A stretch of 56,123 nt of DNA from Bacteroidota bacterium (lineage in GTDB: Bacteria > Bacteroidota > Bacteroidia > Sphingobacteriales > Sphingobacteriaceae): assembly GCA_030830805.1 (NCBI GenBank), contig JAURMH010000122.1:1-56123 (forward strand). The letters are read 5' to 3'. The notes below the pieces were generated by a model. It was not told the origin of the DNA, searched no databases, and worked only from the letters and a program-made list of their open reading frames with translations. The position numbers were made by a program, and so were the translations under genes. Of the stretch, positions 23,604-23,751 are shown piece after piece (position 1 is the stretch's first letter; each line of letters opens with the position of its first letter).

Positions 23604-23635
23604 TTGAATGAATATTAAAATTTATTCTATTTTTG
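23604..23635 (+). promoter_or_regulatory. Bacteroidota-type promoter of metK
   Basis: A TTG at 23604-23606 and TATTTTTG at 23628-23635 are separated by 21 bases. This matches the Bacteroidota vegetative promoter (-33 TTG/TTTG, -7 TAnnTTTG), with an exact -7 box. Transcription would begin about 23640-23643, just before the first strand of the SAM-II-like structure, so the riboswitch would lie at the extreme 5' end of the mRNA. Confidence 0.6.
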
Positions 23636-23646
23636 TGCTACGAAAA

Positions 23647-23696
23647 GTGGAAAATTTGCCTTGATTGCAACCACGTAAAAAAATTGCTAAAAACAG
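23647..23696 (+). promoter_or_regulatory. SAM-II riboswitch candidate upstream of metK
   Basis: A compact 50-base element ends 55 bases before the metK ATG. GTGG (23647-23650) pairs with CCAC (23671-23674) as P1. The loop contains ATTTG and GATTGCAA, and the tail contains GCTAAAAA (23686-23693). Pseudoknot pairs can form between GCAA (23667-23670) and TTGC (23684-23687), and between TTG (23661-23663) and CAG (23694-23696). The conserved words ATTGCAA, ACGTnAAAAA and GCTAAAAA match my memory of the SAM-II (metX-type) consensus in spacing and order. SAM repressing its own synthetase gene is a consistent logic. P1 is short (4 bp), which leaves some doubt. Confidence 0.75.
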
Positions 23697-23751
23697 ATCT
23701 TTTTACCCATATCTTTCTTTTCGATATTTTTTTAAAACTTATTTATAAACT

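Follow-up and report, generated by a model that had tools for sequence, protein, structure and literature searches.

The metK Locus and Its Leader

The window, by which we mean the whole stretch of 56,123 nucleotides analyzed here, carries a metK gene for S-adenosylmethionine (SAM) synthetase. Its leader holds a promoter-like motif, a SAM-II riboswitch aptamer and a segment of 51 nt that separates the end of the aptamer from the metK start codon (Table 1). The motif reads TAnnTTTG, which we take to be the Bacteroidota-type promoter consensus, and 11 nt lie between its last base and the first base of aptamer stem P1. Of 255 unique leaders of relatives, 226 have TAnnTTYG in the 35 nt before P1, where mononucleotide shuffles would lead one to expect 9.7, and the median gap is 11 nt. 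Since the motif stands so close before P1, the aptamer is placed at or near the 5′ end of the RNA, and transcription probably starts before it. This agrees with the preliminary description, which had put a promoter just upstream and the aptamer near the mRNA 5′ end.

Table 1. Features of the metK leader in the window (positions are those of the window)
Feature	Position	Strand	Basis
Possible -33 element TTG	23604..23606	+	sequence only, candidate
Promoter-like TAnnTTTG (TATTTTTG; TAttTTTG)	23628..23635	+	sequence
SAM-II aptamer RF01726	23641..23700	+	cmscan
P1 5′ strand GUGG	23647..23650	+	sequence, cmscan
Block GATTGCAA	23663-23670	+	sequence
GAUUGC block	23663..23668	+	faced by downstream GCAAUC in many relatives
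GCAA, possible P2 pseudoknot 5′ strand	23667..23670	+	complementarity
P1 3′ strand CCAC	23671..23674	+	sequence, cmscan, relatives' alignment
Block ACGTAAAAAAA	23673-23683	+	sequence
GUAAAAA, within aptamer A-rich strand	23675..23681	+	sequence, cmscan; pairs UUUUUAC in predicted fold
UUGC, possible P2 pseudoknot 3′ strand	23684..23687	+	complementarity, putative
Block GCTAAAAA	from 23686	+	sequence
UUUUUAC, candidate anti-aptamer strand	23700..23706	+	predicted fold; family-wide association
Weak hairpin AUAUC/GAUAU, then U run	23709..23733	+	predicted fold; too weak for a terminator call
CUUUUCG	23717..23723	+	complementary to CGAAAAG 23641-23647, RNA 5′ end
metK, S-adenosylmethionine synthetase, 417 aa	23752..25005	+	ORF; NCBIfam TIGR01034, 518 bits, cut-off 309

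Identity of the Aptamer

With cmscan, the window scored 54.9 bits against the Rfam model RF01726 (SAM-II, 'long loops'), above the gathering score of 44 (E 7.6e-8). This is the single gathering-level Rfam match in the whole window, and a search of the genome with RF01726 returned the metK leader as its one match (E 4.2e-10), which together indicate that the resemblance exceeds chance. The SAM-II candidate proposed earlier for the metK leader is thereby borne out, and the parts that had been named for it are present in the sequence, namely the GTGG/CCAC stem, the ATTTG block, the further blocks and the possibility of GCAA/TTGC pairing. GCAA is presumably a strand of pseudoknot P2, which in this class would join the loop (UUGCA) to the 3′ strand (UGCUAA); it is able to pair with UUGC, with the reservation that the P2 blocks doubled as anchors of the search pattern. 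Where the preliminary description had a TTG/CAG pairing, the Rfam alignment of the window aptamer draws an inner AUU/GAU pairing. The model named at the outset was RF00521 (SAM_alpha, the SAM-II of alpha-Proteobacteria), which we assume to have the same architecture as the window element, with a P1 hairpin, pseudoknot P2 and an A-rich strand. It gave no match in this genome at E ≤ 0.001, which is weak evidence as control genomes gave none either, and RF01726 is the model that matches.

Stem P1 has four standard pairs, as the preliminary description had counted, and the fifth pair of the model (A23646/G23675) is non-standard. Conservation of the stem was followed in relatives with an anchor independent of pairing. 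The third pair is standard in all 256 unique relatives, being U-A in 242, A-U in 13 and G-C in 1, while the fourth is standard in 255 and the fifth in just 90. The exchange of U-A, A-U and G-C at the third pair supports P1 by compensatory change, so that the alignment of relatives' metK leaders once suggested as a check for covarying pairs has turned out in favor of the stem.

SAM-II is known to occur in Bacteroidetes (Barrick and Breaker, 2007; PMC2258182), and Weinberg et al. (2010; PMC2864571) record its long-loop form among riboswitches, from Bacteroidetes and from marine samples. The window copy shares with RF01726 the score above gathering, the phylum, P1 and the core blocks. It differs in having no long loop (60 nt in all), in its non-standard fifth P1 pair and in a joining region from P1 to AUUUG that lacks one base present in most relatives, a form found in 7 of the 256 unique relatives, window included. 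The 60-nt aptamer is identical across the four same-genus genomes that carry it. On the evidence of sequence, then, the element in the metK leader is truly a SAM-II aptamer, and its location is an ordinary one. It adds a member to a class already listed, and it is the expression-platform signal of its relatives that is worth following.

Distribution Across Bacteroidota

RF01726 matched in 34 of 60 relatives searched and in 28 of 198 genomes across the class. In the window's own family, probably Sphingobacteriaceae, 379 of 399 genomes have a match. The element is thus near-universal in the family and not the divergent variant that had been suspected. Among 238 covariance-model loci, metK lies downstream in 236 and the other two end at contig edges; in 229 no more than 320 nt separate it from the core pattern, and in seven further loci lacking that pattern it begins 58-76 nt after the RF01726 match. 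RF01726 is therefore a metK element in these Bacteroidota genomes, and a position before metK, initially regarded as unusual for SAM-II, is the usual one within the phylum. The best 80 metK loci by protein similarity include 36 with the core pattern.

For the comparisons below, 318 loci (some genomes fetched more than once) were reduced to 265 by removing 53 in which the core pattern was missing near metK or the start of metK was absent, and to 256 that were unique in core and leader. One very short leader was excluded from the complementarity and start-region pairing tests, which have 255 rows. As controls, the 44 of those 80 best metK loci that lack the core were used. These are impure, as a cmscan of 20 of them found two that hold an RF01726 match missed by the pattern (L046, L051) and two with SAM-I/IV aptamers. 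The latter, L036:1327-1432 and L065:1322-1426, are metK leaders of other Bacteroidota with aptamers that are not SAM-II. One genome, G623, has two RF01726 matches (contigs 60 and 344), where every other listed matching genome has one.

Complementary Strands Downstream of the Aptamer

In many relatives, the stretch between the aptamer and metK contains short sequences complementary to the aptamer itself, and these lie outside the Rfam model. They are GCAATC, which complements GATTGC, TTTTAC, which complements GTAAAA, and TTAGCAC, which complements GTGCTAA. Dinucleotide shuffles provided the expectations. In the family, GCAATC is present in 24 of the 188 leaders having GATTGC (2.6 expected), spread over 13 genera, and TTTTAC in 90 of 188 (28.0 expected). 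Leaders L007 and L033 are family examples with GCAATC. Outside the family, GCAATC is again in excess (8/25, 0.4 expected) and TTTTAC is not enriched (3/25, 2.6 expected). The 44 control leaders are not enriched in either, with GCAATC in 2 (1.0 expected) and TTTTAC in 3 (3.6 expected), and one of these three, L051, itself holds RF01726.

The downstream motif also follows variation in the aptamer. TTTTAC was found in 90 of 146 leaders whose aptamer has GTAAAA and in 15 of 110 whose aptamer does not, an odds ratio of 10 with phylogeny ignored. Shared descent was allowed for by clustering alone in the competing-strand p-values. In 113 leader clusters, TTTTAC accompanies GTAAAA in 24 of 52 and occurs without it in 6 of 61 (odds ratio 7.9, p 1.4e-5), and GCAATC is present in 21 of 87 clusters where 1.1 are expected. 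Stricter clustering, into 48, gives 8/17 and 3/31 for TTTTAC (p 0.009) and 9/31 for GCAATC (0.43 expected). The association of GATTGC with CAATC is weak when taken alone (p 0.03, 0.10, 0.36), and leaders with a GCTTGC aptamer have the matching GCAAGC in 0 of 27 cases outside the family and 0 of 7 inside.

Pairing energies point the same way. In 20 of the 23 genera of the family, the aptamer 3′ half complements the next 45 nt better than it does shuffles (mean z -1.32, Wilcoxon 6e-5). A 5′ control stretch falls below shuffles in 15 of 23 (p 0.13), and the paired difference between the two has p 0.009, or p 0.06 over 70 nt. In a first, modest complementarity test, p ≤ 0.05 was reached by 52 of 255 leaders when the 3′ half was taken and by 36 with the 5′ control, against 12.75 expected. 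In both tests the control is imperfect, being the 32 nt before GATTGC, which are mostly loop in long-loop aptamers.

When aptamers cut at GCTAA were swapped between leaders, native pairing was better than swapped pairing in genus g13 (z -5.5) and outside the family (z -4.2), and to a lesser extent in g14 and g16 (z -2.3 each) and with one leader per genus (z -2.1). Genera g18 and g21 showed no clear effect. In g13 the target has shifted and the helix is compensated. Here AATTGCTAA stands opposite TTGGCAATT, exactly so in 11 leaders, and 18 of 20 leaders fit their own form better than AAGTGCTAA. Four g13 leaders have AAGTGCTAA, and these carry TTAGCACTT, TTAGCGCTT, TTGGCACTT or TTGGCGCTT, with all nine pairs restored; leader L202 has kept the old partner at the cost of one mismatch. 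In g16, comparison by eye places GTTTTTCCACTT or TTTAGCACTTTT opposite the same aptamer strand as in g13. Unguided consensus folding returned a competing hairpin in g21, in part also in g18, and none in g13, g14, g16 or the pooled rest. Leader L039, from a genome named Pedobacter, resembles the g13 leaders, and L048 (Mucilaginibacter) those of g14, which points to Sphingobacteriaceae as the probable family.

In the window itself, GCAAUC is absent, and the candidate strand is UUUUUAC, which in the predicted fold pairs with GUAAAAA beside P1. TTTTAC is kept in all five unique leaders of the genus, yet about 17-22% of shuffles contain it, and about 19% for the window. Complementarity to the aptamer 3′ half in this genus is no better than in shuffles (median z about +0.1; 0/5 at p ≤ 0.05), nor is the folding of the window leader (z 0.28). 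A switch by the downstream strand of the window would accordingly be an extension from its relatives, as it is not significant in its own genus.

A helix between the RNA 5′ end (CGAAAAG) and CUUUUCG, of whose seven pairs the predicted window fold contains five, was also considered; it attracts the eye but is unsupported family-wide (13/23 genera below shuffles, p 0.098) and stays a lead. In g14 leaders (e.g., L210, L301, L305, L309, and L310) the 5′ tail CCGAAAG complements CUUUCGG some 20-30 nt before metK, and the two ends co-vary. Swapping of 5′ tails gave p 0.004 in g14 and p 0.016 outside the family, and ran in the opposite direction in g13 (p 0.997) and g18 (p 0.992).

Expression Output and Proposed Mechanism

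There is very good reason to think that 23641-23700 is a SAM-II aptamer heading the metK mRNA, through which SAM would feed back on its own synthesis. SAM would be the ligand, and its binding would lower metK expression. In the mechanism that we propose, which draws its support from relatives, the downstream strand would, in the absence of SAM, pair with segments of the aptamer 3′ half (GAUUGC, GUAAAA, or GUGCUAA) and dissolve the aptamer, and metK would be expressed. SAM would lock the aptamer and free the downstream strand, with repression of metK as the outcome. As to how the freed strand might act, the best guess left is a step of Rho type or one at ribosome recruitment. Contact between the SAM-II pseudoknot and the expression platform has been described (PMC2258182), and a strand competing for the pseudoknot would fit this principle.

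Precedents come from Sinorhizobium meliloti, where SAM-II precedes metA and metZ rather than metK, and where a Rho-independent terminator (metZ) and masking of a GAGG Shine-Dalgarno sequence (metA) have been predicted (PMC9373788). Alternative structures with and without SAM, formed downstream of the same aptamer class, are common to that system and the present proposal, whereas neither the terminator nor the GAGG masking was found in the Bacteroidota leaders examined. No SAM-II platform described for Bacteroidota was encountered in a literature search whose scope excluded most subscription journals and the supplement of PMC2864571.

A rather unlikely alternative is that the output is translational alone, with the SAM-bound RNA hindering ribosome recruitment at metK, no anti-aptamer strand at work and the complementarity incidental. 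Translational control by riboswitches is common outside Firmicutes (PMC2258182), and the leaders show no excess of intrinsic terminators, both of which suit it. The downstream complementarity is enriched, however, and tracks aptamer variants, and in the window the aptamer ends well short of the start codon. Sequences resembling a Shine-Dalgarno (AGGA or GAGG within 18 nt) were seen in just 5 of 256 leaders, the window's not among them. Accessibility of the start region does not differ consistently between states, since the free state exceeds the occupied one in 122 of 255 rows, with a value missing for one row. That the post-aptamer segment masks the start was considered as well and is unsupported, with pairing at p ≤ 0.05 in 9 of 255 leaders and a mean z of -0.04.

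Intrinsic termination, in which SAM binding would permit a terminator to form before metK, is very unlikely. In alpha- and beta-Proteobacteria, the platform predicted most often for SAM-II is a regulatory terminator (PMC2258182), and the window does offer a five-pair AUAUC/GAUAU hairpin followed by a U run, at -1.0 kcal/mol, a value equalled by only 1 of 200 shuffles of the 32-nt piece. Against this, the stem is worth about -0.4 to -1.0 kcal/mol, it was found in no more than three of the genus's five leaders, and a terminator pattern scan of the window leader found none. Family-wide, 2 of 130 leaders reached -4 kcal/mol or better where 2.6 are expected, the 130 being those of the 256 unique leaders retained at up to eight per family genus together with those outside the family, and a terminator output was rejected on this count. 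That the resemblance arose by chance, or that the aptamer is degenerate and non-functional, as the missing joining-region base and fifth P1 pair might suggest, is extremely improbable in view of the genome-wide E value, the identity of the aptamer in four same-genus genomes and its near-universal presence in the family.

Intrinsic termination and Shine-Dalgarno masking, the two customary outputs, thus look absent, which makes the output worth testing. The post-aptamer segment is C-rich and G-poor, with 25% C and 11% G as against 19% C and 15% G in the 44 core-less metK leaders (p 1.7e-9, phylogeny ignored), a composition that would suit Rho loading. It is conceivable, though we put it forward tentatively and with some doubt, that the metK SAM-II elements of Bacteroidota share a strand-exchange platform that requires neither an intrinsic terminator nor a Shine-Dalgarno sequence. 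Without SAM, a pyrimidine-rich, G-poor strand would pair with the pseudoknot and A-rich strands of the aptamer; freed by SAM, e.g., as a Rho loading site, it would shut off metK. The aptamer segment targeted would differ by genus while the competition itself was kept. Were this true, Bacteroidota SAM-II would gain a switching mechanism.

SAM-I Beside SAM-II

SAM-I (RF00162) matched in 32 of 37 relatives searched, and none was seen in the window's own genome, which is 83% complete. In 16 of the 23 family genomes searched for both classes, SAM-I and SAM-II occur together (G002-G007, G009, G011, G014-G019, G021, and G022), two of the 16 SAM-II matches lying slightly under the gathering score. Two more genomes of the class, G039 and G040, also have both. 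Twenty SAM-I loci (L319-L338) were inspected for the genes that they hold. Three of them (L322, L329, L333) have SAM-I before a ResA-like thiol-disulfide oxidoreductase, a NifS-like cysteine desulfurase and a TonB-dependent-receptor-like protein, where the first two calls are below NCBIfam cut-offs and the third was made by eye. Ten loci contain metH, five a relative of O-acetylhomoserine sulfhydrylase (one at 36% identity) and none metK; NCBIfam confirmed metH in three and the sulfhydrylase in one of the loci checked. This distribution indicates that metK uses SAM-II and the methionine-synthesis genes SAM-I. A 2007 survey came upon no species having SAM-I together with SAM-II (PMC2258182), and their co-occurrence on different genes departs from that picture.
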